34,738 nucleotides of DNA from Desulfobacteraceae bacterium (GTDB taxonomy: Bacteria; Desulfobacterota; Desulfobacteria; Desulfobacterales; RPRI01): the NCBI GenBank assembly GCA_011391695.1, contig JAABQB010000032.1, positions 1-34,738 of the forward strand, written 5' to 3'. A model generated the notes under the pieces. The model was not told the DNA's origin. It ran no database searches and saw nothing but the letters and a program-made list of their open reading frames with translations. This document shows, one piece after another, positions 9,871-34,738 of the stretch; the first letter of the stretch is position 1; each line of letters begins with the position of its first letter. A program made the translations under genes and the position numbers.

Positions 9871-9908
9871 GATGATTCTCTCCGTTTGAGATCTTTTAAA
9901 TGCTCACT

Positions 9909-10446: not shown

Positions 10447-10449
10447 ACT

Positions 10450-10781: not shown

Positions 10782-10817
10782 GCATGGCTGACTTCACTTG
10801 ATTGAAGTCAGCCATGC
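10782..10817 (-). terminator. 15-bp perfect hairpin after glnA
   Basis: GCATGGCTGACTTCA (10782-10796) and TGAAGTCAGCCATGC (10803-10817) form a perfect stem with a 6-base loop, ending 10 bases beyond the glnA stop. There is no T-run after it on the minus strand. It may stabilise the 3' end of the glnA message, or work together with the stronger terminator about 300 bases further on. Confidence 0.5.
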
Positions 10818-10827
10818 CACTTATCTG

Positions 10828-12240: not shown

Positions 12241-12369
12241 GAAAAATCTCCTTCTTTGATAAGTTAATCATATTTGTTTGTATTTATTTGGTATTATGAA
12301 ACATTTCAGGATTGTAGATTAAGAGCGCAAACCTCCAATCCATCATTCATTAGCCCGGTTCTGTACTAA

Positions 12370-12723
<354 letters not shown>

Positions 12724-12758
12724 TTATTTATTGTGACTTTATAAAAAGCCGTCAATAT

Positions 12759-13976
12759 TTACATTGTATAACCTACCTCACTGTGCTGAGTCACATCAAG
12801 ACCCTGTACTTCTTCCTCATCGGTTACCCTCAGACCGGTAACATTATCCACAATCTTCACAATAACGGCAGTCACTCCCATGGAAAACGCAATCGCAGCT
12901 AAAATACCGACCGCCTGTATCAGAACCTGTTTCGGATTTCCGTAAAAGAGTCCGTCAAAACCGGCAGGATTAATTGTCTTGGTTGCAAAAAACCCTGTTG
13001 CAAGAGCGCCCCAGATTCCGCCCACTCCATGCACAGCCACCACATCAAGGGCGTCGTCATATCCGAACCTGCTTTTCATCATCATCGCAAAACAGCAGAT
13101 GATGCCTGCCACAATGCCGATGATAATCGCAGGAACAGGGCCTACAAAACCTGCGGCAGGAGTTATTGCCACAAGGCCTGCAAGTGCGCCTGATGCGGCT
13201 CCCAGAGTAGTCGGTTTTCCATGATATAGCCACTCCGCTGCAAGCCATGAAACGGCGGCGGCGCCTGCCGACAACTGAGTTGTAACAAGGGCCATTACGG
13301 CCACAGGACCGGCGGAAAGCGCGCTTCCCGCATTAAAACCGAACCAGCCGAACCAGAGTATTCCGGCGCCAAGAACCGTCATGGAAAGATTATGGGGCAT
13401 TATCGATTCTTTTCCCCAGCCCCTTCTTTTTCCAAGCATTACGGCAACAACAAGCGCAGCCGCTCCCGAATTTATGTGTATGACAGTTCCTCCCGCAAAA
13501 TCAAGGGCTCCTAGCTTTCCAAGCCACCCACCGCCCCAGACCCAGTGGCAGACGGGAAGATAAACAAATGTCGTCCAGAGCACCGTAAATAAAAGAAACG
13601 CCGAAAATTTCATTCTTTCTGCGTAAGCACCTGTTATCAGCGCGGGCGTTATGATTGCAAACATTAATTGAAAAGCGCAGAATAAAAGATGCGGTATTCC
13701 TTGGGAATATGGTCCCGGTGAAAGTCCAACACCGTTTAAGAAAGCCCATTCCAGATTGCCGGTAAAACCCTTTATATCCGGCCCAAAGGCTATCGAATAA
13801 CCGTAAGCAACCCATATCAGTGAAACCAGACCCAGGCTTATAAAACTCTGCAGAATTGTTGAAAGAACATTTTTAGACCGGACCAGTCCGCCGTAAAAAA
13901 GAGCAAGTCCCGGAGTCATAAACATAACCATTGTTGTTGCTATAAGCATGAATGCCGTATCACCCGAATTTATCAT
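12759..13976 (-). CDS. amt: Ammonium transporter (first copy)
   Basis: The 405-residue inner-membrane Amt/Rh channel subunit conducts ammonium. The first helix begins at the N-terminus (GDTAFMLIATTMVMFMTPGL) with no cleavable signal peptide. The twin pore histidines are in TVIHINSG and VVAVHGVGG, and the HWVWGGGWLG and GWFGFNAGS signatures are present. The C-terminal tail RVTDEEEVQGLDVTQHSEVGY is the cytoplasmic segment that PII docks to. GGAGG lies before the ATG. GlnB follows 50 bases later and is its likely gating partner. Confidence 0.95.
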   Translation of the reverse strand: MINSGDTAFMLIATTMVMFMTPGLALFYGGLVRSKNVLSTILQSFISLGLVSLIWVAYGYSIAFGPDIKGFTGNLEWAFLNGVGLSPGPYSQGIPHLLFCAFQLMFAIITPALITGAYAERMKFSAFLLFTVLWTTFVYLPVCHWVWGGGWLGKLGALDFAGGTVIHINSGAAALVVAVMLGKRRGWGKESIMPHNLSMTVLGAGILWFGWFGFNAGSALSAGPVAVMALVTTQLSAGAAAVSWLAAEWLYHGKPTTLGAASGALAGLVAITPAAGFVGPVPAIIIGIVAGIICCFAMMMKSRFGYDDALDVVAVHGVGGIWGALATGFFATKTINPAGFDGLFYGNPKQVLIQAVGILAAIAFSMGVTAVIVKIVDNVTGLRVTDEEEVQGLDVTQHSEVGYTM

Positions 13977-14067
13977 TTAATATAAACCTCCGTTATATCT
14001 TCCGCCAAAATCCATGACAGGGTTAAACAATTAATCATGACTCAGTAAAAAGTTTTAAAATCATAAC

Positions 14068-14097
14068 TCCCTTGAATCCTCGAATCCCTGAACCCTT
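14068..14097. repeat. Short phrase repeat (CTTGAATCCTCGAATCC type)
   Basis: A run of CTTGAATCCTCGAATCCCTG followed by AACCCTT is the reverse complement of the GGATTCAAGGGGTCAAGG repeats near 25762, 29559 and 30487. It lies between amt and glnD. These are low-complexity intergenic repeats with near-heptameric phasing. Confidence 0.55.
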
Positions 14098-14118
14098 ATA
14101 TATTTTTTAAACAGAGCT

Positions 14119-16776
14119 TCACAAAACCGGTTTTGGAAGTACCTCTGATATTGCAGCCTTGATTGAGGCCACCTGATCTTCTGAATCAACTTTTTGACCT
14201 AAAAAATCCGTCACGTAAAAAACGTCAACTACCTGGTCTGATTTTGTTGCAATTTTTGCAACCCGTATATCCAGCCTGCATAAAAAGATAGCATTTGTCA
14301 TGCTGTATAAAAGTCCCGGGAAATCATATGAAAAGACTTCAATAATTGTAAAAAAGCTTGAGCTCTTGTTGTCAACTTCAATTCGGTGAGGCTTTCCCAT
14401 CAGATGAGGTTTAAGATGCATGTTGTCCGACATTTTCTCCTTCAGGGCGATCGCAAGATCAAGCTCTCCCGAGAGAGCCGATTCAAGATTCTTTTTCGCG
14501 GAAGCCCATTTTTTCTCTTCAAATATCTGATCAACCGGGGGTTTGAGTGTAAAAATATCGAGTGCAATATTATTTTTCCATGTGTTGATCCGGGCATCAA
14601 GAATATCGAGCCCATTTAAAGTAAAGACTCCGGCCATTTTTGAAAACAACCCCGGCCTGTCTTTGGCACATATGGTAAGAATTCTTGTATTTGACTCGAG
14701 CGGTTTTTCCACATCCCATACGAATTCGGAACCTCCGAGACTCGAATAAAGTCTGTAATGCTCAAGAATCTCCCGGTCTGTCGTGTACAGAAGATATCTT
14801 GGAGGCAACACCTCGACATGCTTATTAATCTCTTTTCTCTCTCTTGCCGAGGTTACGGCACCGAGCAATTTTCTTTTTTTATTTTCAACCGCCTCAACAG
14901 CACCTGTTGCGGCAAGTTCGCCCTTTTCCATGATACTCAGTATCTTTAAGAACAGATCCCGAAGAAGGGTAAAGGTCCAGTCATTCCACGCCTTCGGACC
15001 CGTCGATATCGAATCGGCAACCGAAAGAAGGTAAAGCATCTTTAACAGCTCGATATTCTTTATTTTTCCGGCGCAGAAAAAGGCGGTCTCTTCATCATTT
15101 ATGTCTCTTCTCGTAGCTGTTTTGACAAGCAGCAGATGCTCTTCCACCAGAAACGAGACCGCTTCGATTGTCTCTCGTCTGAAACCCATCCTTGTGAGTA
15201 TATCCTTTGCAGTTTTTGCCCCGCGCCTGGAATGCCCGCCGCCCGGCTCGCCTTTGCCTATATCATGAAGGAGAGCAGCCCAGAGAAGAACCTTCCGGTT
15301 TTTCAATTCCTGGTAGAGATTTCCGCACAGCCAGTCTCCGGAGATATCCTCGTCAGTCCCAAAACTTTTAATGGTCCTGACGGCTCTTAAGGAATGCCTG
15401 TCAACAGGATAAAGATGATACTCGTCAAACTGAATCCTGTTAATGATTCCTTTTACCTCGGGGATAAAACGTTCGAGAAAACCGGTATTAAGCATATCAT
15501 CCAGAACACCGGATGACGGAGCCGGCGCGGCCAGTATTTTTTCAAACGACCTGATCACCGAAGCCGAAGCACTGAAAGCCCCGTCCACAATATAACCGAA
15601 TTCCCTTATCAGTCTTTTCCCTTCAGAGCATATAGGGATCCCCAGATTTGCGCTCTCTTCGAATATTGCAATCAGAAGTTCCGGATTGCTTAAAATGCTT
15701 TCCGAAGAGGCAAAATTGAGAGAACCTTTTTTTGTTACCTCAAGGCCCTCTGTCTTTGTATTTTTTAAAGACCTTCTCTTACGGGTCTGTTTTCTGTCGA
15801 AACCGACTTCATAAAGAAACATCATGAACTGCTGCTTTATAAATTCCATTCTGCCGTGAAGCTCTCCCAAAAACATTTCAACAGGCTTATGGCCGTTTTC
15901 AGAACTTAGTCTCAAAGCTTTTGCAACTTTCGGCTGATATTCAAAATAGAGCTGGTCACTTTTTCTCCCGGTCAAATAATGAAGTCTGTTTCTCGTATGC
16001 CATATGAAAGAGAGACACTCAGAAAAGCTCCTGAATTCGTCATGTGAAAGGTAACCGTAATATTCAAGATCCCTCGGTTTTTTGATATCCGACATGATAC
16101 GGGCTATCCAGAGCATCGTATGATAATCCCTCAGGCCTCCCTGCCCTTCCTTTATATTCGGCTCGAGCATGTATGTCGAATCCCCGAAACGCAGATGCCG
16201 GGTAGTGTTGCTTTCAACCAGCCAGTTGATAATTCTTTCCGGTTTTTTCACCAGAATTTTTCTCTGGAGCTCATCCATAAGGTCCGAATATAGAAACGAC
16301 ATCCCACATATGAAACGGGCATCAAGCAGCGATGTTAGAACCTGATAATCGCTTCCGGCAATGCTGATGCATTCTTTAACGGATCTGGTGGCATGTCCTA
16401 CATCAACTCCTATATCCCACAGGGGGTACACAACCTCCTTAATAAGCTTTTCGGCATTTTCAGGCACTTTTCCCCCGAAAAGGAAAAGGAGGTCAACATC
16501 GGAATGAATGCACTGCTCCTGCCGGCCGTATCCGCCAAGCGCAATTATCGCAAAGGGATTTCTATCAATCACCATTCCCGGTCCGATTATGCTTTTTTCA
16601 AAGCTTTCGAAAAAATAATCATCAAAAAGTCTTGAGTGCCGCTCTAGAAACAAAGGGTCATCATCTTTGAGATACTCCTCAAAAAATCTCTCCCTTTTCT
16701 GCTTCAAAACTTTCGAAGCATTTTCGTATTTAATATCCTCTATTTTTTCTGCGGCTGCGTTAATCAAAGTCTTCAA
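14119..16776 (-). CDS. glnD: PII uridylyltransferase/uridylyl-removing enzyme GlnD
   Basis: The 885-residue bifunctional sensor adds UMP to PII when glutamine is low and removes it when glutamine is high. The nucleotidyltransferase motif LGGYGRQEQCIHSDVDLLFL is near residue 80, with the catalytic Asp pair in SDVD. A central GlnE-like helical region follows, then the HD hydrolase (LLHDIGKGEPGGGHSRRG). Two ACT domains close the protein (ICAKDRPGLFSKMAG and EVFSYDFPGLLYSMTN). The start appears to be TTG at 16776 after AAAGGAA; no in-frame ATG exists before the upstream TAG. A consensus sigma-54 promoter lies about 70 bases upstream. Amt follows after 142 bases. Confidence 0.93.
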   Translation of the reverse strand: MKTLINAAAEKIEDIKYENASKVLKQKRERFFEEYLKDDDPLFLERHSRLFDDYFFESFEKSIIGPGMVIDRNPFAIIALGGYGRQEQCIHSDVDLLFLFGGKVPENAEKLIKEVVYPLWDIGVDVGHATRSVKECISIAGSDYQVLTSLLDARFICGMSFLYSDLMDELQRKILVKKPERIINWLVESNTTRHLRFGDSTYMLEPNIKEGQGGLRDYHTMLWIARIMSDIKKPRDLEYYGYLSHDEFRSFSECLSFIWHTRNRLHYLTGRKSDQLYFEYQPKVAKALRLSSENGHKPVEMFLGELHGRMEFIKQQFMMFLYEVGFDRKQTRKRRSLKNTKTEGLEVTKKGSLNFASSESILSNPELLIAIFEESANLGIPICSEGKRLIREFGYIVDGAFSASASVIRSFEKILAAPAPSSGVLDDMLNTGFLERFIPEVKGIINRIQFDEYHLYPVDRHSLRAVRTIKSFGTDEDISGDWLCGNLYQELKNRKVLLWAALLHDIGKGEPGGGHSRRGAKTAKDILTRMGFRRETIEAVSFLVEEHLLLVKTATRRDINDEETAFFCAGKIKNIELLKMLYLLSVADSISTGPKAWNDWTFTLLRDLFLKILSIMEKGELAATGAVEAVENKKRKLLGAVTSARERKEINKHVEVLPPRYLLYTTDREILEHYRLYSSLGGSEFVWDVEKPLESNTRILTICAKDRPGLFSKMAGVFTLNGLDILDARINTWKNNIALDIFTLKPPVDQIFEEKKWASAKKNLESALSGELDLAIALKEKMSDNMHLKPHLMGKPHRIEVDNKSSSFFTIIEVFSYDFPGLLYSMTNAIFLCRLDIRVAKIATKSDQVVDVFYVTDFLGQKVDSEDQVASIKAAISEVLPKPVL

Positions 16777-16845
16777 ATTCCTTTGCCGTCTGTTTGTGGC
16801 GGCATCATTACTATTTTTATATGCCTATTTTGAGACTTATTATAG

Positions 16846-16861
16846 AGCAACGATCGTGCCA
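16846..16861 (-). promoter_or_regulatory. Sigma-54 (-24/-12) promoter of glnD-amt-glnB-glnA
   Basis: Read on the minus strand, CTGGCACGATCGTTGCT matches the RpoN consensus TGGCACG-N4-TTGCW at every defined base, with the GG-to-GC spacing of 12. Predicted transcription starts near 16835, about 60 bases before the glnD start. Sigma-54 control by an NtrC-type activator fits the nitrogen genes behind it. Confidence 0.8.
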
Positions 16862-17214
16862 GAACAATTTGAATGATATAAATATTGTAATATCAAAATG
16901 TTACCAATTTTAATTATTATACAACAAAGCAATATAAAGAACAAGAATGTAATAAATAAATACAAATTTGTAACATGCCTGAATTGTTTCCCGGAATTTC
17001 TGTTGCCGGATAATTGTTGCGGTTCGATTATTTTATTTGAGCAACGATTACGATTATGATCCGGAAAAAAACAAATTCTGGTACGCCATGGACTTTTAAA
17101 CATGAGGCTTGATACCCCCCCAAAAAATACATATATGTAATAAATTATCATCATTTATACAATATTGTAATAATATATTATCTTATACTTTCTATAATAT
17201 CAGTTAGTTAAGGC
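16862..17214. promoter_or_regulatory. AT-rich region between two divergent sigma-54 promoters
   Basis: No gene is seen. Within it, ATATTGTAATA occurs twice (near 16880 and 17161) and an ATGTTAC/GTAACAT pair occurs near 16900 and 16970. GTTGC appears twice near 17000-17020, with GCAAC near 17040. Activators of sigma-54 promoters bind 80-200 bases upstream, so any of these could be shared enhancer sites. The classical NtrC palindrome (GCAC...GTGC) was not found. A run of seven Cs lies near 17115. Confidence 0.4.
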
Positions 17215-17231
17215 TTGGCATGGTTATAGCA
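17215..17231 (+). promoter_or_regulatory. Sigma-54 (-24/-12) promoter of the porin-amt2-glnK unit
   Basis: TTGGCATGGTTATAGCA fits TTGGCACR-N4-TTGCW with two mismatches and keeps the essential GG and GC at the required spacing. Predicted start is near 17242, about 130 bases before the porin start codon. It is divergent from the glnD-side element. Confidence 0.7.
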
Positions 17232-17369
17232 GTGCTTTCATCAACACAAAAAGCCGGTTCTTCAAAAAGTGGGGCGTGCGGAGATGCAGGCAGGAAGATC
17301 AAAAGGAGAAGGACATAAACTGTGTTTTTATCAATCAATTATTCGAAGGGAGAAAAGAGAGGAGAAAAA

Positions 17370-18227
17370 ATGAAAAATTTTATTTTTGCAGCAAGTATGT
17401 TTGTTTTGATGATGACAGCATTTATGACATCAGCCGGTGCAGATGAGTCTGCTCCAGCCGCAGGCGCCCCCGCTGTTCAGGCTACCCAGGATAATTCGGC
17501 AACAGGAAGCGTATCAGCGGGCGTGTTCAACAGGTATATCTTTAGAGGTTATGAGTTGAGCGCGCATAGCGCAGTTATTCAACCCGCGCCGACTGTTTCT
17601 TATAAAGGCTTCGGTCTATCCATGTGGGGCAATATTGATACCGACGAACACCCGACCCAGTCTTTTGTCCCCGACAGAGAAGGGCAGAAAAGCTTCAATG
17701 AGACAGATCTTACACTTAGCTATACCTATAACATAGATAAACTTTCACTTACCGGAGGATATGTCTATTACGGTACAAAGTATACAAATGAGACCGAAGA
17801 ATTATTTGTATCAGCTACTTATGATACACTGCTAAAGCCAACATTGGCTATTTATAAGGACATCAATGAATATTCAGGGACATATATAAATCTTTCGGCG
17901 TCGAAATCATTTTCTGTCTATAAGGAGATCAGCCTCGATTTGGGAGCATCTGCAGGATATTTCGTTGGAAATGCCGACTACTGGAAAACTTATGAAAGAT
18001 CAACAGGCTCATATACAGGAAAGAAATACCAGGGATTCCATGATGGCATGATCAAGGCCGGATTCACCATTCCAGTTACCGAGAATATAGTGATACAGCC
18101 TTTAGTACAGTGCTGGTTTCCTATTTCAGGCGAGGCCAAGAGAACGATTGACGACAACTCGTACAACTTTAATGGAAAGCTCGATGATACTTTTGTTTAT
18201 GGTTTGAATGTCACACTGTTATTCTAA
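17370..18227 (+). CDS. TorF-family outer-membrane porin (Gcw_chp-like)
   Basis: I choose the ATG at 17370 because GGAG lies just before it and it begins a clean signal peptide (MKNFIFAASMFVLMMTAF, cleaved near SAGA-DE); the upstream in-frame start lacks both. The 285-residue protein then shows alternating beta strands. SVSAGVFNRYIFRGYELS is typical of the start of the TorF/TIGR02001 barrels, and the chain ends in a terminal phenylalanine (LNVTLLF), the outer-membrane assembly signal. Its position between a sigma-54 promoter and amt-glnK suggests that it lets ammonium or small amines through the outer membrane under nitrogen limitation. The substrate is inferred from context only. Confidence 0.8.
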   Translation: MKNFIFAASMFVLMMTAFMTSAGADESAPAAGAPAVQATQDNSATGSVSAGVFNRYIFRGYELSAHSAVIQPAPTVSYKGFGLSMWGNIDTDEHPTQSFVPDREGQKSFNETDLTLSYTYNIDKLSLTGGYVYYGTKYTNETEELFVSATYDTLLKPTLAIYKDINEYSGTYINLSASKSFSVYKEISLDLGASAGYFVGNADYWKTYERSTGSYTGKKYQGFHDGMIKAGFTIPVTENIVIQPLVQCWFPISGEAKRTIDDNSYNFNGKLDDTFVYGLNVTLLF

Positions 18228-18251
18228 AAAAAACTTATACGGAGGAAAGAT

Positions 18252-19742
18252 ATGAAACGGTTTGTAATAATAGGCTTATTAATTAGTATACTGTATCTCT
18301 TTTTTTCGGGCATGCTTTTTGCCGGGGACAAACTTGCAGAGGCACCTGTGTCAGATCAGGCGGTTGCCTCTGTGTCAGCTGCGAATGTTTCAGCAGCGCC
18401 GGCTGTGGCCGTCACTCAAGAAGCGCTGGATGCTCTGAAAAGCTCAATGCAGGTGGGCGTCGACACAGCCTGGGTGCTCTTCACCGCGTTTCTTGTTTTT
18501 TTTATGAACCTGGGTTTTGCCATGGTGGAGTCAGGATTATGCCGCGCGAAAAATACGGTAAACATCCTGGCGAAGAACTTTATCGTATTTGCTTTATCGT
18601 CGGCGTCCTTCTGGGTAATCGGCTGGGGACTCATGTTCGGCAACGGCAACCCTTTCGCGGGTCTGGAGGGTCTGTTTTTTGCGAGCGGCGCTGATAACAG
18701 CCCGGCCATGGGCGAAGCCTACAAGGGCGCTTACACCGCCCTTAACTGGACCGGCGTGCCTATGTGGGCAAAGTTCTTTTTTCAACTGGTGTTTGCGGGA
18801 ACTGCCGCGACCATCGTTTCGGGAGCTGTGGCAGAGCGCATCAAATTCCACTCCTTTATCGCCTTTTCATTTGTTCTGGTGGCCATTATGTATCCGATTA
18901 CAGGTCACTGGATCTGGGGCGGCGGCTGGCTGCAATCTTTGGGGATGTTCGATTTCGCCGGTTCCACGGTTGTTCACTCCGTGGGCGGTTGGTCTGCACT
19001 CGCCGGAGTGATCCTTCTCGGTTCCCGTCTGGGCAAGTACCGCGATGACGGTTCGGTTAATCCTGTCTTGGGGCACAACATGTCCACGGCGACTCTGGGG
19101 GGAATCGTGCTCTGGTTCGGCTGGTTTGGGTTCAATCCCGGCTCAACCATGGCTGTGGGCGACGGCAGCGCCATCGCGCACGTTGCGATCACCACCAATA
19201 CCGCCGCCGCAATGGCTGTTATCAGCTCAACCGCCACCTCATGGTTGCTGCAGAAGAAGCCCGATTTATCCATGATTATAAACGGCGCTCTCGCCGGCCT
19301 GGTGGCCATCACGGCGCCCTGCGCCTTCGTGAGCGTTGGTTCATCGGCCGTAATCGGCCTCATAGCCGGCGTGCTTGTTGTATTAGCTGTATTCATGTTT
19401 GACAAACTGAAGATTGATGACCCCGTGGGCGCACTTTCGGTTCACCTGGTAAACGGCGTATTCGGCACACTGGCGGTAGGACTCTTCGCCCAGGATAAGG
19501 TTACAGGGACGGCAACCGGCAACGGCCTTTTATTCGGAGGAGGCGCCAAGCTCTTTATTGCGCAATTGGTCGGCGTCGTAGCGGTTGGTGTTTTTACATT
19601 CACTGTCGCTTTCGCCGTATGGTACCTTATTAAGATAGTAATGGGGCTTAGGGTATCGCGTGAGGAGGAGATCGGTGGATTAGATCTCAGCGAGCACGGC
19701 ACAAAGGCTTATCCGGACTTCCAGGGTTTCCTTACAAAATAA
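18252..19742 (+). CDS. amt: Ammonium transporter with N-terminal signal peptide (second copy)
   Basis: The 496-residue Amt differs from the first copy. It has a signal peptide (residues 1-24), a ~40-residue Ala/Val-rich periplasmic lead-in, then eleven membrane helices as in AmtB. Pore histidines lie in TVVHSVGG and LSVHLVNG, and HWIWGGGWLQ and GWFGFNPGST are present. The tail RVSREEEIGGLDLSEHGTKA is the PII-binding segment. GGAGG precedes the ATG, 24 bases after the porin stop. GlnK follows 44 bases after its stop. By eye, the central part of the gene is more GC-rich than its neighbours, possibly a sign of separate origin. Confidence 0.95.
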   Translation: MKRFVIIGLLISILYLFFSGMLFAGDKLAEAPVSDQAVASVSAANVSAAPAVAVTQEALDALKSSMQVGVDTAWVLFTAFLVFFMNLGFAMVESGLCRAKNTVNILAKNFIVFALSSASFWVIGWGLMFGNGNPFAGLEGLFFASGADNSPAMGEAYKGAYTALNWTGVPMWAKFFFQLVFAGTAATIVSGAVAERIKFHSFIAFSFVLVAIMYPITGHWIWGGGWLQSLGMFDFAGSTVVHSVGGWSALAGVILLGSRLGKYRDDGSVNPVLGHNMSTATLGGIVLWFGWFGFNPGSTMAVGDGSAIAHVAITTNTAAAMAVISSTATSWLLQKKPDLSMIINGALAGLVAITAPCAFVSVGSSAVIGLIAGVLVVLAVFMFDKLKIDDPVGALSVHLVNGVFGTLAVGLFAQDKVTGTATGNGLLFGGGAKLFIAQLVGVVAVGVFTFTVAFAVWYLIKIVMGLRVSREEEIGGLDLSEHGTKAYPDFQGFLTK

Positions 19743-19786
19743 TAAATGTCGCGCAAGCGTCAATATAAAAAAGAGGAGAAAATACT

Positions 19787-20128
19787 ATGAAACTTGTAAT
19801 AGCAATTGTGCAACCTGAAAAACTGAGCGATGTTAAGCAGGCGCTCACCACAGCAAAAGTTGCGAAGATGACTGTCTCCAGCGTTATTGGATGCGGGTCG
19901 CAGGGCGGACATACAGAGTCCTACCGTGGCGCCGTAACCGAGATAAACCTCCTTGATAAGGTGCGCTTCGAGGTTGCGGTCAATGACGAATTCGTAAAAC
20001 CCGCCGTTGATGCAATAATCAAGGGCGCGCGAAGCGGAAAGATTGGGGACGGAAAGATATTCGTGGTTCCCCTTGAGGAGTGCATCAGGGTACGCACCGG
20101 CGAGACGGGAGCCGCTGCTATCGGCTGA
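19787..20128 (+). CDS. glnK: PII protein GlnK-type, lacking Tyr51
   Basis: This 113-residue PII protein probably gates the Amt encoded just upstream. The fold signature [20 protein letters not shown] is complete. The T-loop reads [14 protein letters not shown]: residue 51 is Thr instead of the Tyr that GlnD uridylylates. Tyr46 is present but is not the usual target. It should therefore respond to 2-oxoglutarate and nucleotides without GlnD control, unlike the GlnB at 12370-12708. GAGGAG stands before its ATG. It ends the porin-amt2-glnK unit and is followed by a hairpin. Confidence 0.93.
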
Positions 20129-25848: not shown

Positions 25849-26120
25849 AGACGACTTTGTAAGAAGCTAATATGCAAGGCGCGCAAATCCTGAGGAATGA
25901 AGCGTACTTTTCGTACGCTGAGCCCTTTGAAGAACATCCAATTTTGTCCAAGTACAAGGAAGGCGATACTTTTAACCGCGGGAATACATTGAGTATTTCG
26001 AGGATTAAAATTTGAGCCTGACGCAGTAATCGGGCAAAAGGGGGTGTTATGCAAAGGGCTCACGCTGCAATGACGAAGGATGCAGTGCAACACAGCAGAT
26101 TAGCTTATTACGAAGTCGTC
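25849..26120. mobile_element. Palindromic repeat element, copy 1, interrupted by another element
   Basis: The outer ends AGACGACTTTGTAAGAAGCT and its inverted partner AGCTTATTACGAAGTCGTC bound the element. Its two halves match copy 2 at 26850-26977, including GCAAGGCGCGC, GAGGAATGAAGCGTAC, CAATGACGA and GCAACACAGCAGA. A 141-base insert at 25921-26061 separates the halves. The right end overlaps the 3' end of the Crp/Fnr gene and supplies its stop codon. Confidence 0.75.
25921..26061. mobile_element. Nested palindromic insert with 6-bp target duplication
   Basis: This 141-base sequence begins AGCCCTTTG and ends CAAAGGGCT plus one base. Its two halves are imperfect inverted copies around a small GAATAC/GTATTT stem near 25980-26000. 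ACGCTG lies immediately before it (25915-25920) and again after it (26062-26067), while the uninterrupted copy at 26850-26977 has ACGCTG once at that point. It therefore looks like a non-coding mobile insert. Confidence 0.7.
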
Positions 26121-26803
26121 AGGTTTTTACCGTGTTCTGCGAGATGCATAAGCCCCGGGCGGTTAACAAGCTTTATCTTGCGTCCTGAAACTGCTATTAA
26201 CTCCATGTCTGTCATTTTCGCAAAAATGCGCGACAAAGTCTCCGGAATAGTTCCAAGAAGACTTGCAAGCTGACTTTTTGATATATCCAATCTGACGGAA
26301 TCCTCTTTCCCCTGCTCATCGGCAAGATATAATAAATATGATGCAAGGCGGCCCGGAACCTCTTTCAAGGAAAGATTTTCTATCTGGACCGTAAATTGCC
26401 TGAGCCTCATTGAAAGAACAGCAAGCATGCTCAAAGAAAGGGAGGGGTTTCCTGTGATAAGATCCACAAAATCCACCCTCGGGAAAAACAGAAGCCGGCT
26501 TCCTGCAATGGCTTCAGCATTAGCAGGAAACGGCTGGCCAGTAAAAACAGGAACCTCACCAAAAGGTTCTCCCGTTCCGAAAATATGAAGGATTTGTTCC
26601 TTTCCTTCTGAAGAGACCTTGTATATTTTGACAAGCCCTTCCACAACAACATAAAAGCCGTTGCCCGGATCACCCTCTGAAAAGATGGTTTCACCCTTGT
26701 TGAAGTGCTTGCTTACTGCAATCTTTCTTATATCATTGAGCTGCTCATCCGGAAGACCGTCAAAAAGGGGTACAGCAGAAACTATTTCAAAAACATTTTT
26801 CAT
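26108..26803 (-). CDS. Crp/Fnr-family regulator, HcpR-like, without cysteines
   Basis: I choose the ATG at 26803 (231 residues), which has AAGGA before it; upstream codons run into a repeat element. Residues 10-120 form the cyclic-nucleotide-binding beta roll (FSEGDPGNGFYVVVEGLVKI). A dimer helix follows, then the winged helix, whose recognition helix is TIPETLSRIF. Glu188, Ser191 and Arg192 match the FNR residues that read TTGA. There is no cysteine, so it cannot hold an FNR-type cluster; this suits HcpR regulators, which bind haem and respond to nitrosative stress. It is divergent from hcp, with a matching palindrome at 26995-27008. Its last codons (LTTS) and stop come from a repeat element. 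Confidence 0.82.
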   Translation of the reverse strand: MKNVFEIVSAVPLFDGLPDEQLNDIRKIAVSKHFNKGETIFSEGDPGNGFYVVVEGLVKIYKVSSEGKEQILHIFGTGEPFGEVPVFTGQPFPANAEAIAGSRLLFFPRVDFVDLITGNPSLSLSMLAVLSMRLRQFTVQIENLSLKEVPGRLASYLLYLADEQGKEDSVRLDISKSQLASLLGTIPETLSRIFAKMTDMELIAVSGRKIKLVNRPGLMHLAEHGKNLTTS

Positions 26804-26849
26804 ATTTTCCTTTTTGTTATTATCCACAATCTCAAAAAAGTTATGGTTC

Positions 26850-26977
26850 AGACGGCAAAGTAAAAAGCGCATTATGCAAGGCGCGCGAGTCTTGAGGAAT
26901 GAAGCGTACATATCAGTACGCTGCAATGACGAAAGATGAAGCGCAACACAGCAGAATGACTTTTTAAGAAGCCGTCT
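26850..26977. mobile_element. Palindromic repeat element, copy 2 (intact)
   Basis: The 128-base element is bounded by AGACGGC and GCCGTCT and is an imperfect palindrome centred on GTAC-ATATCA-GTAC near 26907-26920. It is the uninterrupted counterpart of the element at 25849-26120. It lies between the regulator gene and the operator-like palindrome, so it separates the regulator from its probable binding site. Confidence 0.75.
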
Positions 26978-26994: not shown

Positions 26995-27008
26995 TTGACT
27001 TAAGTCAA
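26995..27008. promoter_or_regulatory. FNR/HcpR-type operator upstream of hcp
   Basis: TTGACTTAAGTCAA is a perfect 14-bp palindrome of two TTGAC half sites with the 4-base spacing of FNR-family operators. A -10-like TATATT at 27029-27034 puts the likely start near 27041, so the site would be centred near -40, the position for class II activation. The neighbouring regulator has the Glu-Ser-Arg residues that read TTGA. Confidence 0.78.
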
Positions 27009-27087: not shown

Positions 27088-28716
27088 ATGTTTTGTTACC
27101 AGTGCGAACAGACGTCAAAAGGTGAAGGATGTTCCAAGATAGGTGTATGCGGGAAAAGTCCGGAAGTTGCCGCCCTGCAGGATCTTCTTATATATGCTGT
27201 CAGAGGTTTGTCTCTGTATGCTCTTGCAGGATACAAGGCGGGAATAACCGACAAAGAGATCGACAAGTTTACCTGTGAGGCGGTTTTTTCAACATTGACA
27301 AATGTGGATTTTGACCCGGCAAGGTTTCAGAAACTTATCGAAAAGTGTGCCGGTTTTCGAGATGCGCTGAAGGAAAAGCTTGCAAAAGCCGGAATCAAAA
27401 CAGGCTTTACCGAAGACGCAGCTTTATTTATTCCGGAAAAAACAATCGAAGGCCTGATTTCACAGGGTGAAAAAGTTGGTGTAAAAAGCAATCCTGATAT
27501 CAATCCGGATATCTTATCTCTTCAGCATATTTTGACATACGGAGTAAAGGGAGTAGCCGCCTATACGGATCACGCTATGCTTTTGGGCAAAACGGATGAC
27601 AGAATTTACAGGTTCATTTACGAGGCAATGGCCGCAGGGTTGAACAAAAATCTGGGAGTAGAAGAGCTTGTTGGTCTTGTATTAAAATGCGGAGAAGCAA
27701 ACCTGTGGGCTATGGAGATTCTTGATGCAGCCAACACAGGCGCATACGGCCACCCTGTTCCGACAAAAGTTCCTCTTGGGGCAAAAAAGGGAAAAGCAAT
27801 TCTTGTTTCAGGACATGACCTGAAAGATCTTGAGGAGATACTGAAACAGACCGAAGGCAAAGGCATAAATGTATATACCCACGGTGAAATGCTTCCGGCT
27901 CATGGTTACCCAGGCCTTAAAAAGTATTCCCACTTTTACGGCCATTACGGAACTGCATGGCAGAACCAGGCAAAAGAATTTGCCGAGTTTCCTGGCGCGA
28001 TACTGATGACCACAAACTGTATTCAGAAGCCTAAAGATTTTTACAAGGAGAATATATTTACAACAGGCCTTGTCGGCTGGCCGCATGTAGCTCATATACA
28101 GGATAAAAACTTTGCGCTCGTAATCAATAAAGCACTCTCACTGCCGGGTTTTGAAAAAGATACCGATGGCAAAACCGTTATGGTCGGTTTTGCCCGCAAT
28201 GCCGTTATGGGTGTGGCCGGTCAGGTTATCGAAGCGGTAAAAGGCAAGGCTATAAGACACTTCTTCCTTGTTGCCGGATGCGACGGAGCAAAGCCGGGCC
28301 GCAATTACTACACCGAGTTTGTAGAAAAAGTTCCAAAAGATTGTGTCGTTTTAACTCTTGCCTGCGGTAAGTTCCGCTTCTTTGACAAGGACCTCGGTGA
28401 TATCGGCGGAATACCAAGACTTCTTGATATCGGGCAGTGCAATGATGCCTATTCAGCCATACAGATCGCTGTTGCCCTTTCAAAGGCTTTCAACTGCGGG
28501 GTAAACGATCTTCCTCTTTCCATGATACTTTCATGGTATGAACAGAAGGCTGTTGCAATTTTACTGACTCTTCTTTACCTTGGAATAAAAGATATCAGGC
28601 TGGGACCAACTCTTCCGGCATTTATCACGCCGAATGTTTTGAATGTTCTGGTCGATAAATTCAACATAATGCCGATAAAAACACCTGACGAAGACTTAAA
28701 GGCAATTTTGGGATAA
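27088..28716 (+). CDS. hcp: Hybrid cluster protein / hydroxylamine reductase
   Basis: The 542-residue cytoplasmic protein carries a hybrid Fe-S-O cluster and a 4Fe-4S cluster. It reduces hydroxylamine to ammonia in vitro, and NO to N2O is proposed as its physiological role. The N-terminal cysteines 3, 6, 15 and 21 (CxxC-x8-C-x5-C) are the spacing of the strict-anaerobe form (Desulfovibrio type). Hybrid-cluster ligands are visible in ANTGAYGHP, YTHGEMLPAHGYP, MTTNCIQKP, VAGCDGAKPGRNYY and ACGKFRF. AAAGGAG precedes the ATG. The TTGAC palindrome upstream suggests induction by the divergent HcpR-like regulator. Confidence 0.96.
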   Translation: MFCYQCEQTSKGEGCSKIGVCGKSPEVAALQDLLIYAVRGLSLYALAGYKAGITDKEIDKFTCEAVFSTLTNVDFDPARFQKLIEKCAGFRDALKEKLAKAGIKTGFTEDAALFIPEKTIEGLISQGEKVGVKSNPDINPDILSLQHILTYGVKGVAAYTDHAMLLGKTDDRIYRFIYEAMAAGLNKNLGVEELVGLVLKCGEANLWAMEILDAANTGAYGHPVPTKVPLGAKKGKAILVSGHDLKDLEEILKQTEGKGINVYTHGEMLPAHGYPGLKKYSHFYGHYGTAWQNQAKEFAEFPGAILMTTNCIQKPKDFYKENIFTTGLVGWPHVAHIQDKNFALVINKALSLPGFEKDTDGKTVMVGFARNAVMGVAGQVIEAVKGKAIRHFFLVAGCDGAKPGRNYYTEFVEKVPKDCVVLTLACGKFRFFDKDLGDIGGIPRLLDIGQCNDAYSAIQIAVALSKAFNCGVNDLPLSMILSWYEQKAVAILLTLLYLGIKDIRLGPTLPAFITPNVLNVLVDKFNIMPIKTPDEDLKAILG

Positions 28717-28827: not shown

Positions 28828-29559
28828 ATGAAATGCCCCGGACAGGACAGCCGGTACTGGAAGCAGGGAGCTATCTTTGATGTTAATTGCCCGAAATGCG
28901 GCAGCAGAGTTGAGTTTTTCAAAGATGACACGGCGCGTAAATGCAATAATTGCGGATACAGATTCATAAATCCGAATATGGATTTCGGGTGCGCATCTTA
29001 CTGCGAATACGCCGAACAATGCCTCGGAACTCTTCCCGAAGAGCTTCTCGCCAAAAAAGAGGACTTGTTAAAGGACAGGGTGGCTGTTGAAATGAAAAGG
29101 TATTTCAAGTCCGATTTCAAGCGCATCGGCCATGCTTCAAAGGTTGCCCGATACGCCGAACGGATAGGGAAAGCGGAAGGCGGCAACCTTGCGGTAATTC
29201 TGGCGGCCTCCTATCTTCATGACATTGGAATTGTAGAAGCGGAAAGGAAATACAGCAGTACGGCTCCGAAATACCAGGAAGAGGAAGGACCTCCAATTGC
29301 AAAGGGAATACTTATAAAACTCGGCGCAAAGGAGAATCTTATCAGCGAGGTATGCGACATAGTGGGTCATCATCATCATCCGAAAACTGACGACAATATA
29401 AATTTCAAAGTGGTTTACGATTCCGATATGATCGTTAATATCGAAGAGAATATGAAAGAGAACCCGATTGATAAGGATAAAATAGATGAAATTATAGATA
29501 AATCATTTTTAACCGAAACCGGCCGGATCGTTGCCCGGGAGGTACTTATAAAAGCATAG
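28828..29559 (+). CDS. Zinc-ribbon plus HD-domain phosphohydrolase-like protein
   Basis: Of 243 residues, the first 66 hold eight cysteines: a zinc ribbon at 21, 24, 39 and 42 (CPKCG...CNNCG), with Cys3, 55, 59 and 65 beside it, which could bind another metal or cluster. From about residue 95 comes an HD domain: His102, the HD pair at 131-132 (SYLHDIGI), a HHHH run at 181-184 and Asp residues at 198/200. HD proteins are metal-dependent phosphohydrolases acting on nucleotides or other phosphoesters; the substrate here is unknown. GGAG precedes the ATG. Its place between hcp and a ferredoxin-like gene suggests a role in the same response. Confidence 0.75.
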   Translation: MKCPGQDSRYWKQGAIFDVNCPKCGSRVEFFKDDTARKCNNCGYRFINPNMDFGCASYCEYAEQCLGTLPEELLAKKEDLLKDRVAVEMKRYFKSDFKRIGHASKVARYAERIGKAEGGNLAVILAASYLHDIGIVEAERKYSSTAPKYQEEEGPPIAKGILIKLGAKENLISEVCDIVGHHHHPKTDDNINFKVVYDSDMIVNIEENMKENPIDKDKIDEIIDKSFLTETGRIVAREVLIKA

Positions 29560-29731: not shown

Positions 29732-30472
29732 ATGAAAGTAAAACGAAAAATAATAGAAATTAACGAAGAACTTTGTGACGGCTGCGGGCAGTGTGTTACG
29801 TCATGCGCAGAAGGCGCGCTTCAGATTATCGATGGGAAAGCAAAAGTTATTTCCGATAACTTCTGCGACGGGCTTGGCGCCTGTATGGGGGAATGCCCCG
29901 CCGGAGCGCTGCAAATAATCGAGCGTGAAGCCGATGAGTTTGACGTGGAGGCAGTTGAAAAACACCTTCATGATAAGCAAAAAAAAGCGGCGGTACCAGA
30001 ACCTGCGTCACCGTGCGGATGTCAGTCGGCCGGGGTACAGATTTTTACCTGTAAGGATGCCAACAAGCCTTCTTTTATCGAAGAAGCAGGTGATTCGGCT
30101 CTTTCCCACTGGCCGATTCAGATAAAACTCGTTCCGGCAAACGCTCCTTTTTTGAAAGGAGCCGATCTTCTGGTTTTGGCTGACTGCGTCCCCGTTACCT
30201 TTCCTACCCTGCACAGGGATTTTTTGAAAGGGAAGGCCGTAATGATGGGGTGTCCCAAATTCGACAATGTCCAGGAATACATTGACAAATTTGCAGCTGT
30301 TTTTAAAACAGCCGGAATAAAAAGCGTGACAACGGTGATAATGGAAGTTCCTTGCTGTTCCGGTCTTCCCATGATAGTTAAAAAGGGAATGGAAAAAGCC
30401 GGTGTAAATGTGCCCATGGAAAAGGTCGTGATAAGTACGAAGGGAAAGATTATAGGATCATTGCCATATTAG
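29732..30472 (+). CDS. Ferredoxin-like 4Fe-4S protein of the hcp locus
   Basis: The 246-residue cytoplasmic protein opens with a ferredoxin domain. CDGCGQCVTSC (Cys15, 18, 21, 25) is a full 4Fe-4S motif. The second, CDGLGACMGEC (45, 51, 55), lacks one cysteine, the form common in this protein type. A linker with CGC follows. The ~150-residue C-terminal domain has LVLADCVPVTFPTLH, MMGCPKFDN and VPCCSGLP, which add cysteines that could bind another cluster. HcpR regulons in deltaproteobacteria often include a ferredoxin-like gene next to hcp, so it is a candidate electron donor to Hcp. AGGAG lies before the ATG. Confidence 0.75.
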   Translation: MKVKRKIIEINEELCDGCGQCVTSCAEGALQIIDGKAKVISDNFCDGLGACMGECPAGALQIIEREADEFDVEAVEKHLHDKQKKAAVPEPASPCGCQSAGVQIFTCKDANKPSFIEEAGDSALSHWPIQIKLVPANAPFLKGADLLVLADCVPVTFPTLHRDFLKGKAVMMGCPKFDNVQEYIDKFAAVFKTAGIKSVTTVIMEVPCCSGLPMIVKKGMEKAGVNVPMEKVVISTKGKIIGSLPY

Positions 30473-30547: not shown

Positions 30548-32740
30548 CTATTCTTTATCTGCTTTCCCTGGAAATTCCTTATAAACATATACTTTCCCTG
30601 TTTTCAGGGCTTCTTCGGAAGCCTCCTTTATTTTGTTGAAGCGGTGTTTCAGCTCGTAGAAACCATGCCACCACGCATAATCAGGGGCCATCATGGCTGA
30701 ACCCATCCTGGCTCTTCTTCCTTCATGGTGCCATAATTCATAGAATTCCCATTCAAGTTCCTCATCGAAGTAGCTGCTCTTTGACAGGATTCCTTTTGCG
30801 TAAAGATTATCCATGATTTTTGTGGCAGGTTCATAATAATTTGATTCATAATTTATAATCACATTGTCAAGATTTTTAAAGTGTGAGTTTGCCCATTCTT
30901 CTGAATGGCACTGCCGGCAGACCATTATCATTTTTGCTCTTTCATTTATCCAGTCTGTTTTTGCAGGGAAAGCCTTAAAATCAGACGGCCTGATTGTTGA
31001 TGGCGCCTGAAGTTCCCACGATAATCTTTCTGTAACATCATGAGTTTTTGAAACACCAAGTGCCGCTGACATATGGCAGGCAGAGCATGTCGGAGCCCTG
31101 AAGTCTCTTCCTGCTTTCCAAGTGCCGTCATCAGTAGTCCAGTTCCATTCTCCTGCTTCTGCATTGTATATGGCGCCGTGTTTCGATTCATTGTAAATTT
31201 CTATCTGAGGATGATCAGGGCCGAGATGGCATTGGCCGCAGGCTTCAGGTTTTCTTGCCTCGGCAACCGAAAACCTGTGCCTTGTATGGCAGCTTGTGCA
31301 GCTTCCCAGGCTTCCGTCGGGATTCTTTCTCCCCACTCCGACATTCGGCCATGATCCTTCAATCGGTTTGCCTTCTTTAACATCAACAACTGTTCCATGA
31401 CATACATTGCACCCGCTGTTGCGTTCAACATCATTGTTCATCCCGTATTGAAGCCATTTGTCGTTTTTCCACATTATCTCTATCGTGTTTGCATGTTTGC
31501 TTTTTGAATACTCGGCAACCTGTTTCGGGTGGCATTCAGAACAGGTTTTTGGGCTGACAAAAGATGTTATTAAAAGCGATGAATGTTTTAAATGAGATTT
31601 GCTTGCTGCGTTTGAAAGCGATTCAGTTGCTTTATGACATTTGTAGCAATCCGCTCCGACTCCGGCATGAATGCTTTTTGCCCAGTCGGCATATATGCCC
31701 GGATTCAATTTTTTGTGGCATTCAATACAGTTTTTTGCAGCAAGTGATTCGCCGGACAAAGTTTCTGGAAATACCTTGAATCCCCAGCGCCAGGAAGCTA
31801 TGCAGAAAATTATAAGCAGTATGATAACCATGTTGGAATAGGCCATGAAGACAAAGAGTTTTCTGGTTCCGCTGACCTTTTCAGGCTGTCTCTCTGCGCC
31901 CTTGACCTCGGCAATAAACTTCACCTTTTCCAGCACTTCGGGACCGTGAGGCGCTCCTTTTATGGCTTCTGTAAGATCTGTTCCGGCGGAATGCTTTCCG
32001 AAATGCCTTCCGTTTTTCCACTTCTGACTTCCGGTTACATCATAAATCTTTCTGTCATGAATTATGCAGGCTGGTTTACCTGATGATCCGTCGAAATCTT
32101 TAAGATTTTCAAAATCTATTTTCCCGGGATCAAGTACGGTTTGCTGTGCGGCCTGCGACTCCTTTTTCATCCGGCTGTGTATGAATGTGACAGCCGTGAC
32201 GGCGAAAAGAAGCATAAGGATGAAAAGGAGTATTTTAATAAAGAGAATGCGTCCGAAGGCGTTATCAAAAAAATGTCCGAATCTGTCTATGCGGAACCAG
32301 GTAAGATAGATGCCGGTTATCGTGAGCGTAATCAGGCACGATACGCCGAGTATGCGCTCTCCTTTAGGCAGCCCTCCGGTAATCTGAGAGGGTTTAACGA
32401 AAATGTGTATGTAAAATATGGCGCCGACAAGTATAAATGCGGCCAGAATATGCAGGTATCCTATGACGAATCTTGCCGTCTTGTGGAAAGCGCTCTGGAC
32501 CTTGACGGCTTTTTTGATGATATGAAGAGGAATAGGATACTGGTAGCCGTTTTTAATATATGCAATGCCTGCAGTTTTTAAACCGCCCCCTGTTTTCTCC
32601 TCATGACAGAATATACAGCCTTTCCCGGTTTTTTTTGCGTACTCCTCTTTGGCTGTTGCAAAGCCGGCACATAACAAAACAAGGGCTATAACCAGAAGAA
32701 TCGAAATGAATATTCTTTTTACCGGCATAATTCTATCCAT
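30548..32740 (-). CDS. HAO-like octahaem cytochrome c fused to membrane and cytochrome b5-like domains
   Basis: The 730-residue protein has five parts: (1) a signal peptide or anchor (7-30) and one haem c site, CIFCH 42-46; (2) three membrane helices (about 91-115, 130-149, 165-187) that look CopD-like; (3) a cytochrome b5-like domain at about 210-280 (KIYDVTGSQKWKNGRHFGKH); (4) a fourth helix at 295-317; (5) eight CXXCH sites at 338, 365, 400, 444, 481, 501, 552 and 608. The block NPDGSLGSCTSCHTRHRF through CGQCHLGPDHPQIEIYNESK and APTCSACHMS is the hydroxylamine oxidoreductase family. Such enzymes oxidise hydroxylamine or, in some lineages, reduce nitrite or hydroxylamine. By topology the b5 domain should be cytoplasmic and the octahaem module periplasmic. 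Whether the HAO cross-link tyrosine is present needs an alignment. Confidence 0.85.
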   Translation of the reverse strand: MDRIMPVKRIFISILLVIALVLLCAGFATAKEEYAKKTGKGCIFCHEEKTGGGLKTAGIAYIKNGYQYPIPLHIIKKAVKVQSAFHKTARFVIGYLHILAAFILVGAIFYIHIFVKPSQITGGLPKGERILGVSCLITLTITGIYLTWFRIDRFGHFFDNAFGRILFIKILLFILMLLFAVTAVTFIHSRMKKESQAAQQTVLDPGKIDFENLKDFDGSSGKPACIIHDRKIYDVTGSQKWKNGRHFGKHSAGTDLTEAIKGAPHGPEVLEKVKFIAEVKGAERQPEKVSGTRKLFVFMAYSNMVIILLIIFCIASWRWGFKVFPETLSGESLAAKNCIECHKKLNPGIYADWAKSIHAGVGADCYKCHKATESLSNAASKSHLKHSSLLITSFVSPKTCSECHPKQVAEYSKSKHANTIEIMWKNDKWLQYGMNNDVERNSGCNVCHGTVVDVKEGKPIEGSWPNVGVGRKNPDGSLGSCTSCHTRHRFSVAEARKPEACGQCHLGPDHPQIEIYNESKHGAIYNAEAGEWNWTTDDGTWKAGRDFRAPTCSACHMSAALGVSKTHDVTERLSWELQAPSTIRPSDFKAFPAKTDWINERAKMIMVCRQCHSEEWANSHFKNLDNVIINYESNYYEPATKIMDNLYAKGILSKSSYFDEELEWEFYELWHHEGRRARMGSAMMAPDYAWWHGFYELKHRFNKIKEASEEALKTGKVYVYKEFPGKADKE

Positions 32741-32815: not shown

Positions 32816-32884
32816 GTCACTCCTGTGAAAACGGGAGTCCAAGAATAGTTGAAAAATCTGGATTCCCGTTTTCGCGGGAATGAC
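32816..32884. repeat. Palindromic repeat with GTCATTCCCG arms
   Basis: The arms GTCACTCCTGTGAAAACGGG and CCCGTTTTCGCGGGAATGAC are inverted copies, each able to fold into a small hairpin. They are related to the internal arms of the MITE-like element at 24999-25127. This copy lies upstream of the HAO-like gene; the outer GCCAATTGCA ends are not seen. Confidence 0.65.
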
Positions 32885-32976: not shown

Positions 32977-33441
32977 TCAGGAAGAACGCTTGAGGCCGGG
33001 AGATTCGGATATGAAAACTTTGATGAAAAGATAAACCGCAATTACGACAAAAGAAAAATCGCGTATTAAATAAAGGGTTGATTCAGGCAAGTCGCCTTGG
33101 CTTGTCGAAAAACAGCCGCAGCTTATATCGAGTCCCCGGGCTTTATTGTACATAAGCGCACTGCAAAATATGATCAGAAGGATATTGCCGATAAAAACGG
33201 AACCCGGCAGCCAGACCCCAATTATAAGAAGAGAACCGATTACAAGTTCAAGCCAGGGTAAAAATATGGCTGATAAATTGATAAGTTCATCCGGAAGAAT
33301 CTGGTAATTATAAATGACTTTTGCAAAGGCCGCCGGATGAAGGATCTTATCGTAGCTTGCATAAATAAATACTATGCTCAGACCAATTCTTGCTCCGTGA
33401 TACAGGGTCATTGAAATTTTTTGCCTGATTTCTTCTTTCAT
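32977..33441 (-). CDS. MauE/DoxX-family membrane protein
   Basis: I start at ATG 33441 (154 residues), which shares its A with the TGA of the rhodanese gene (TGATG) and has AGGAG before it; translation is therefore coupled. The protein has four membrane helices. GARIGLSIVFIYASYDKILH is the typical DoxX/MauE opening, and DISCGCF between helices three and four is the paired-cysteine site seen in MauE-type redox-associated membrane proteins. The partner rhodanese suggests shared work on sulfur or thiol redox at the inner membrane; the exact reaction is unknown. Confidence 0.78.
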   Translation of the reverse strand: MKEEIRQKISMTLYHGARIGLSIVFIYASYDKILHPAAFAKVIYNYQILPDELINLSAIFLPWLELVIGSLLIIGVWLPGSVFIGNILLIIFCSALMYNKARGLDISCGCFSTSQGDLPESTLYLIRDFSFVVIAVYLFIKVFISESPGLKRSS

Positions 33442-33941
33442 CACTCTCCTGTTTCCACGGGAAGTCCGTTTTGTTTCCAGACCGGCCATCCATTTGAGAG
33501 AACTGTTGCGTTTTTATAGCCTGCATTTCGTAAAAAAACCGCCAATTCCATGCTCAGCTCGCAAGTTTCCCCGTCACAGTAGGTTATTACGGCGCTCTCT
33601 TCAGAAATTCCCGTCATTGCTTCAACAAATTTCCAGTCGACCTCCTTATATGGTAGGCTTATGGCACCCTTTATATGCCCCGCATCATATTCTGCAAGGG
33701 ATCTGGCATCAATAAAGAATGCCTTACCTTTTTTAAACAGGTTTGAAGCTTCGGCAAGAGATATTTCGAGATTCTCACCGGATGGAGTCACAAGATTTGA
33801 TTTTGCAGACCAGTCTTCAATAAAAGGGATTTTGTCGGATCTGAAATAGTTGGATGCAAACCCGGCGGCCAGGACTATCAGGACTATAAATAGAACCTGA
33901 TTTGATGTTTTTATCCAGATCTTGCTGCTAATTAATCTCAT
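33441..33941 (-). CDS. Membrane-anchored rhodanese-like sulfurtransferase
   Basis: The 166-residue protein has one N-terminal membrane helix (QVLFIVLIVLAAGFASNYF), which would place the rest in the periplasm. A single rhodanese domain runs from about residue 58 to the end. FIDARSLAEYDAGHIKGAIS is the CH2A motif, and the active-site loop is YCDGETCELS with the catalytic Cys in CDG. Such domains carry sulfane sulfur or act as thiol relays. It ends in a TGATG overlap with the MauE/DoxX gene and lies 19 bases after the arsenite permease, so the three are probably one transcript. Confidence 0.85.
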   Translation of the reverse strand: MRLISSKIWIKTSNQVLFIVLIVLAAGFASNYFRSDKIPFIEDWSAKSNLVTPSGENLEISLAEASNLFKKGKAFFIDARSLAEYDAGHIKGAISLPYKEVDWKFVEAMTGISEESAVITYCDGETCELSMELAVFLRNAGYKNATVLSNGWPVWKQNGLPVETGE

Positions 33942-33959
33942 ATTTCCTGTCGAAAAATC

Positions 33960-34738
33960 TCAAGATTTGCATGTGACATGACAAACGCCTGTAGGCGTTT
34001 CCACGGCATATGGAAAATACTTTTTCTTAAACCAGAGAGCGACATTTACAAGGCTTATCAATACAGGAACCTCGACAAGCGGCCCTATCACAGCGGCAAA
34101 TGCCTGCCCGGAATTTATCCCAAATACCGCCACTGCAACGGCAATAGCAAGCTCAAAATTATTTGAAGCTGCCGTGAAACTAAGTGTTGCCGACTGTTCA
34201 TAGGTGGCGCCGGCTTTCATTGAAAGGAAAAAAGAGACAAAGAACATGACAAAAAAATAGATGCAAAGAGGAACAGCCACACGTATGACATCAAATGGAA
34301 GCTGGACAATATATTCGCCTTTAAGGGAAAACATAACAAGGATTGTAAACAGAAGAGCGATAAGTGTGATAGGGCTTATGCTGGGAATGAATTTTTCTTC
34401 ATACCATTTCTTTCCCTTTGTCTTAAGACCTATAAATCTCGTTATCATCCCGGCGATAAAAGGAATCCCAAGATATATGAAGACGCTCTCTGCGATCTGG
34501 CCGATTGAAATATCCACCACCATCCCTTTCAATCCCAGCCATTCGGGTATTACAGTGATAAAAATCCACGCATAAACTGAAAAAAAGAGCACCTGGAATA
34601 TCGAATTAAATGCAACAAGTCCGGCGCAGTATTCGGTGTCTCCGGATGCAAGATCGTTCCATACGATCACCATCGCGATACATCTTGCAAGACCTATAAT
34701 GATAAGCCCGACCATGTATTCCTGATGCCCGGATAAAA
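33960..34738 (-). CDS. Acr3-family arsenite efflux permease (5' end outside window)
   Basis: The frame stays open to the right edge ([19 protein letters not shown]), so the ATG at 34715 is internal and the true start lies outside. The visible part has [19 protein letters not shown], including the cysteine conserved in Acr3 transporters, then at least six further hydrophobic helices and the family motif [20 protein letters not shown]. Acr3 expels arsenite through the inner membrane. The tail ends with two cysteines (CHVTCKS). It is followed by the rhodanese and MauE/DoxX genes. No arsenate reductase or ArsR is visible; they may lie beyond the edge. Confidence 0.88.

Follow-up and report, generated by a model that had tools for sequence, protein, structure and literature searches.

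Genes at the locus and spread of the fusion

The window analysed here, a stretch of 34,738 nucleotides from a Desulfobacteraceae genome, carries on its minus strand a gene (30548–32740) for a protein of 730 amino acids. An earlier reading of these positions (the sequence-only reading) had proposed that one polypeptide joins a cytochrome b5-like domain, a membrane domain and a HAO-like octahaem enzyme. We observed that the reading frame is real and open throughout and that all the listed parts are present; the list differs from our result in that the ninth haem c site lies ahead of the three membrane helices. The protein has nine CXXCH motifs, eight in the octahaem part and one at residue 42. 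Translation may start at the second ATG (residue 5), because an 86%-identical relative begins with MPVKR.

The fusion gene converges with a gene for a two-cluster ferredoxin-like protein (29732–30472, +; Pfam Fer4), and 75 bp separate the two. The same cluster includes a gene for a Zn-ribbon and HD protein (28828–29559, +) and hcp (27088–28716, +), which encodes a hybrid cluster protein of the hydroxylamine/NO reductase family (PF03063, 572 bits; TIGR01703, 759 bits). Upstream of hcp lies the HcpR box TTGACTTAAGTCAA (26995–27008, unstranded). It fits wyTTGACnnnnGTCAArw, the box published for deltaproteobacteria outside Desulfovibrio, and a divergent gene for an HcpR-like regulator of the CRP/FNR type (26108–26926, −; PF00027 and PF13545) is positioned relative to hcp as described in the same paper (PMC1274295). 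There are three perfect TTGACTTAAGTCAA sites in the 2.8 Mb genome, and the CRP-like HcpR box TTGTGA-N6-TCACAA was not enriched in the window (16 matches vs 18 expected). Elsewhere in the genome a second copy of hcp (G000:C30:37946-42431) is followed, some 2.8 kb downstream, by another perfect TTGACTTAAGTCAA.

Upstream of the fusion gene is a 26-nt inverted repeat of the GTCATTCCCGCGAAAACGGGAATCCA type (32816–32884), which we consider a dispersed repeat and not a regulatory site, since one of its arms occurs in 12 copies in the genome. It is followed by genes for an ACR3-type arsenite transporter, a rhodanese and a MauE/DoxX protein (32977–34736), which are kept within the genus of the window (L034, L035 and L059). 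At the other end of the window, genes for nitrogen assimilation (2556–20128) comprise a split glutamate synthase, glnA, two amtB genes each with PII, and glnD/glnE-like genes; a 301-residue predicted secreted protein with no Pfam match is encoded immediately upstream of amtB (17322–18227). A cytochrome c554-like protein with five CXXCH motifs (1129–2481) shows weak similarity to the ExtKL and NrfH models.

When the module alignment was used to scan 84,980 species genomes, 32 loci were recovered, and complete fused reading frames with nine CXXCH motifs were found at 24 of these, each from a separate genome; the fusion is therefore not an assembly artefact. Later searches recovered further fusions, and the same nine-CXXCH architecture is kept in at least 27 genomes, mostly of Desulfobacterota, which also rules out a frameshift. 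The 24 complete frames come from, among others, Desulfosarcina widdelii PP31, where the fusion lies on a complete chromosome, Desulfatitalea, other Desulfobacterales and MAGs of deltaproteobacteria; single MAGs of Spirochaetes (L055) and Desulfarculus (L062) also contributed. The sequence-only reading had allowed that this exact fusion might already be characterised; our literature search found no paper describing a b5–octahaem fusion.

Parts and topology of the membrane module

We observed five hydropathy segments in the protein (residues 10–28, 91–109, 130–148, 165–183 and 296–314). The first resembles a cleavable signal, and a Sec signal peptide is predicted at residues 1–30 (32651–32740, −), with probable cleavage between FATA and KE. 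Next comes the periplasmic haem c site CIFCH (residues 42–46; 32603–32617, −), whose Cys42, Cys45 and His46 are invariant in 25 fused sequences. Modelled with AF2 (pLDDT 78), the module shows a b5 fold and four helices (84–115, 126–150, 161–201 and 291–319). Helix A (84–115; 32396–32491, −) carries the invariant His97 and His112. Helix B (126–150; 32291–32365, −) is overlapped by a match to CopD (PF05425, residues 131–197; 36.7 bits vs a cut-off of 32.1). Helix C (161 to about 197–201; 32150–32260, −) has an invariant Met176 and, in 24/25 fused sequences, His188, which is replaced by Asn in some relatives. Helix D (291–319; 31784–31870, −) connects the b5 domain with the octahaem domain. The match to PF05425 is confined to the three-helix segment; the score against the full-length CopD model NF033808 was 29.3 bits vs a cut-off of 195, and true CopD, which confers copper resistance, has neither b5 nor haem c parts.

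The b5 domain (residues 205–280; 31901–32128, −) is of the small archaeal/bacterial type. It scored just below the cut-off for Cyt-b5 (PF00173, residues 212–273; 22.7 vs 23.7 bits). Its fold is supported by the structures 6nzx from Hadesarchaea (family profile E 7e-22; model Z 13.2, 1.6 Å over 76 residues) and 6vz6 from Methanococcoides (Z 13.3). The candidate axial ligands are His246, His250 and His265, all invariant in the 25 fused sequences. In the full-length AF2 model the mean pLDDT was 62 and the octahaem part was mostly below 50, and we used it for fold matching only. We assigned no membrane fold to the helices, since the VIA-align matches (7ah0, HyaC, voltage sensors and TRP channels) scored no better than ordinary helical bundles.

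Attachment of c-type haem takes place exclusively on the outer side of the cytoplasmic membrane, in the periplasm. As the c-type haems are periplasmic, and three helices separate the first haem c from the b5 domain and one helix the b5 domain from the octahaem part, helix parity places the b5 domain in the cytoplasm and both the haem c at residues 42–46 and the octahaem domain in the periplasm. The charge pattern points the same way for two of the helices: K+R residues are more numerous before helix B than after it in 25/25 fused homologues, and after helix C in 21/25. The counts for helices A and D agree weakly with this topology. The sequence-only reading had arrived at the same arrangement from the positive-inside rule; the arrangement stands, by parity more than by charge, and the rule itself is clear for helices B and C and weak for A and D. 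The same reading had further suggested that the protein could move electrons across the membrane by itself. By parity the b5 and octahaem domains lie on opposite sides, but we can only infer a complete haem chain between them, since of the candidate intramembrane ligands His97 and His112 sit on one helix and His188 is variable.

The octahaem domain and the direction of its reaction

The octahaem domain (residues 330–722; 30575–31753, −) has its eight CXXCH motifs between residues 338 and 612, starting at 338, 365, 400, 444, 481, 501, 552 and 608. It matches PF13447 (Multi-haem_cyto, residues 480–653) with 120.9 bits vs a cut-off of 21.9 (E 8e-35), and a profile search matched 4qo5 (E 3e-57). 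Foldseek returned 4qo5 (E 4e-9), 6h5l and 1fgj, and we take the first two as the closest solved structures; together with the HAO arrangement of the eight motifs, these matches justify the earlier label HAO-like. MccA and the eight-haem nitrite reductase matched marginally, and hmmscan found no match of the fusion to the pentahaem NrfA family (PF02335). Both of the best matches, the Ignicoccus octahaem cytochrome (4qo5) and the reducing HAO-like protein Kustc0457/0458 of Kuenenia (6h5l), are chains without a membrane or b5 domain.

The active-site Asp/His pair after the sixth CXXCH is retained: Asp509-His510 (31211–31216, −), invariant in 25/25 fused sequences, align with Asp267-His268 of the N. 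europaea (Nitrosomonas) HAO. The cross-linking Tyr of oxidative HAO/HOX/HDH, which the sequence-only reading had singled out for inspection, is replaced by Trp691-His692 (30665–30670, −; conserved in 25/25 and 24/25, respectively). In phmmer alignments Tyr467 of N. europaea falls on the Trp column and a Tyr of an anammox HAO on the neighbouring one, so that the alignment is uncertain by one column, and the fusion has a Tyr in neither. Published work takes the absence of this Tyr to mark the reductive members of the HAO family, and in Desulfobacterota His goes with the reductive and Tyr with the oxidative state (PMC8940962, PMC12758564). In epsilon-Hao the position is held by Trp, with a Met eight residues earlier (PMC8940962); Met683-Trp691 and Met684-His692 of the fusion both fit this spacing. 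With the Asp/His pair kept and Trp/His in place of the cross-link Tyr, reduction is to be expected.

Gene linkage in the family bears on the same question. Near unfused haoA, an hcp gene is found at a distance of no more than 2 kb in 7/40 genomes (0.1 expected) and of no more than 5 kb in 9/40 (0.2 expected); the Poisson p is < 1e-9, in genomes that are not independent. The hcp gene is directly downstream of haoA on the same strand in G059, G105, G142, G069 and G020. Perfect HcpR boxes precede haoC in L077, L092 and L101. Two more are found at octahaem–module pairs: in L167 the box lies about 200 bp ahead of the pair, and in L157 it separates the two genes. The hcp linkage and these boxes tie the octahaem family, and in two cases the unfused module–octahaem pair, to the NO/hydroxylamine response. 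The ferredoxin gene is kept beside the fusion in L033–L036 and is found near an unfused octahaem in L096, L097 and L101, and the Hcp–HD–ferredoxin cluster abutting the fusion recurs in L034 and L035. Two observations count against extending the link to the fusion and against the nitrogen-oxide role that we propose for it below: hcp occurs near the fusion itself only in the genus of the window (L034, L035) and in L047, and the 32 fused genes all lack an upstream HcpR box, even with one mismatch allowed.

The sequence-only reading had left the direction open, to or from nitrite, hydroxylamine or NO. The missing Tyr, together with the family linkage to Hcp and HcpR boxes, favours reduction. An oxidative protein would take electrons from hydroxylamine (or NO) outside and pass them inward to b5 and the cytosol, which would account for a cytoplasmic b5 domain and would suit the HAO fold with its retained Asp/His pair. 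We regard this as unlikely, given the cross-link site without Tyr, the linkage to hcp and HcpR boxes, and a host that is a dsrA-bearing sulfate reducer.

The presence of dsrA in 7/8 host genomes also brings in sulfur chemistry. The octahaem domain might reduce sulfite, polysulfide or tetrathionate in place of a nitrogen oxide, a role that has been proposed for octahaems of another clade of Desulfobacterota (PMC9213671) and that to this extent counts against a nitrogen-oxide reductase. We give it a similarly small chance. Among solved structures, IhOCC and anammox HAO-like proteins come nearest, and the MccA match is marginal; the linkage seen is to hcp, and an unsystematic look noticed no sulfur genes beside the loci.

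Multihaem cytochromes frequently serve as electron conduits in such bacteria. The fusion could likewise do no more than conduct electrons or store haem, with no catalytic activity, but in the fused relatives the catalytic pair Asp509-His510 and the motif MMAPDYAWWHG near the C terminus show little or no variation, and this makes such a role very improbable in our view.

Unfused relatives and a proposed electron supply

The nearest unfused octahaems are HaoA-like proteins, 55–62% identical to the fusion over residues 335–725 and present in most genomes of the order. They typically come as haoC–haoA pairs: upstream of 39/56 unfused octahaems examined, a script found a NapC/NrfH-type gene with four CXXCH motifs (haoC). 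HaoC was not found in the genome of the window (98% complete), where PF03264 matched NrfH and the fusion itself only, nor was a second protein of the PF13447 (HAO) family.

The membrane module (residues 1–320) proved to be an independent family, which could not be seen from the window alone. Of 395 genomes of the phylum, about 50 have a full-length match, mostly a standalone CXXCH–CopD–b5 protein of 300–370 residues; these standalone proteins share with the fusion the order of domains and the invariant His residues. At L061, L141, L155, L157, L160, L161, L167 and L174 the standalone gene adjoins a separate octahaem gene of another subfamily. The fusion thus seems to bring its own electron supply in place of the usual separate partner protein.

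We propose, with a little better than even confidence, that the fusion is a membrane-anchored reductase of nitrite and/or NO, possibly also of hydroxylamine, in which a HaoA-like octahaem domain is supplied by a fused module that replaces HaoC. In its mode of action the periplasmic domain would resemble those members of the HAO family that are reductive and of the HaoA type. The module (haem c, CopD-like helices, b5 and helix D) would substitute for the NapC/NrfH-type tetrahaem HaoC, receiving electrons at the cytoplasmic b5 domain or from menaquinol in the helix bundle and passing them through the periplasmic haem c to the octahaem. Nitrite or NO would be reduced there toward hydroxylamine or ammonium. 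Hydroxylamine that is leaked or produced could be reduced in the cytoplasm by the adjacent Hcp with ferredoxin, and ammonium could be assimilated through the GS-GOGAT and AmtB encoded in the window. The proximity of the AmtB and GS genes may, however, be a coincidence, which weakens this part of the proposal.

The reverse-HURM pathway of Nautilia consists of Hao, Hcp, an Fe-S protein, AmtB and GS-GOGAT (PMC3701875), and all these protein types are also encoded in the window. By analogy, the scheme would most likely be that of Nautilia with the tetrahaem donor exchanged for the fused CopD–b5 module. Like the fusion, HaoCA/epsilon-Hao (in Campylobacterota and their Desulfobacterota relatives) combines an octahaem HAO fold without the cross-link Tyr, a Met eight residues before the Trp/His position and Hcp nearby, but there a separate octahaem is fed by the NapC/NrfH-type tetrahaem protein, whereas the fusion has the CopD–b5 module in a genome without HaoC. 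NrfHA offers a second comparison, again a membrane donor with a periplasmic multihaem nitrite reductase; NrfA is pentahaem and NrfH separate, and NrfHA models match the fusion only marginally. The host, a sulfate reducer with dsrA, also encodes NrfHA, with nrfH adjoining nrfA on contig 71. Nitrite reduction is therefore already available to it, which counts against the proposed role.

Two routes for electron entry can be weighed within the same reductase. The module may draw on menaquinol as NapC and NrfH do, with b5 being regulatory or an extra outlet. We hold this to be a serious possibility, somewhat short of even, and it is compatible with nitrogen-oxide reduction. The module takes the gene role of a quinol dehydrogenase, and its helix-bundle model can be superposed on HyaC cytochrome b (Z 10.1) and on a designed two-haem bundle (Z 11.6), although both values are such as a common helix arrangement would give. 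We found no quinone-site signature in the module, and the cytoplasm-facing b5 domain with its three invariant His is kept in every aligned relative, fused and standalone, which suggests that b5 carries electrons. In the other route, one polypeptide would take electrons from a donor in the cytosol and hand them on via b5, membrane haem(s) and haem c to a periplasmic, nitrogen-oxide-reducing octahaem, bypassing the quinone pool; we consider it possible but rather doubtful.

Octahaem HAO relatives are abundant in anaerobes, and what donates electrons to them, and in which direction they work, is mostly guesswork. Since the donor is fused here and is a separate neighbouring gene in relatives, the octahaem–donor partnership can be read from the genome, and it points to a second feeding route for the family besides NapC/NrfH proteins. 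The fusion also offers a one-gene test construct where nitrogen-oxide and sulfur chemistry are debated.

The fusion probably arose at least twice, although we state this tentatively. In our trees the Desulfarculales-like fusions (L062, L113, L115, L116 and L119) are separate from the main fusion clade, and octahaem-neighbouring standalone modules are placed beside each fused group. A single origin of all fusions was weakly rejected (p-AU 0.03), but support for the main clade differed between methods (1.0 in FastTree vs 41% in the quick IQ-TREE run). The octahaems beside the standalone modules form a second subfamily of about 415 residues (for example L061:7902-10103), in which a Tyr occupies the HAO cross-link column or the one beside it (DYSTWYG / PDYALWYG); it is possibly of an oxidative or intermediate type.
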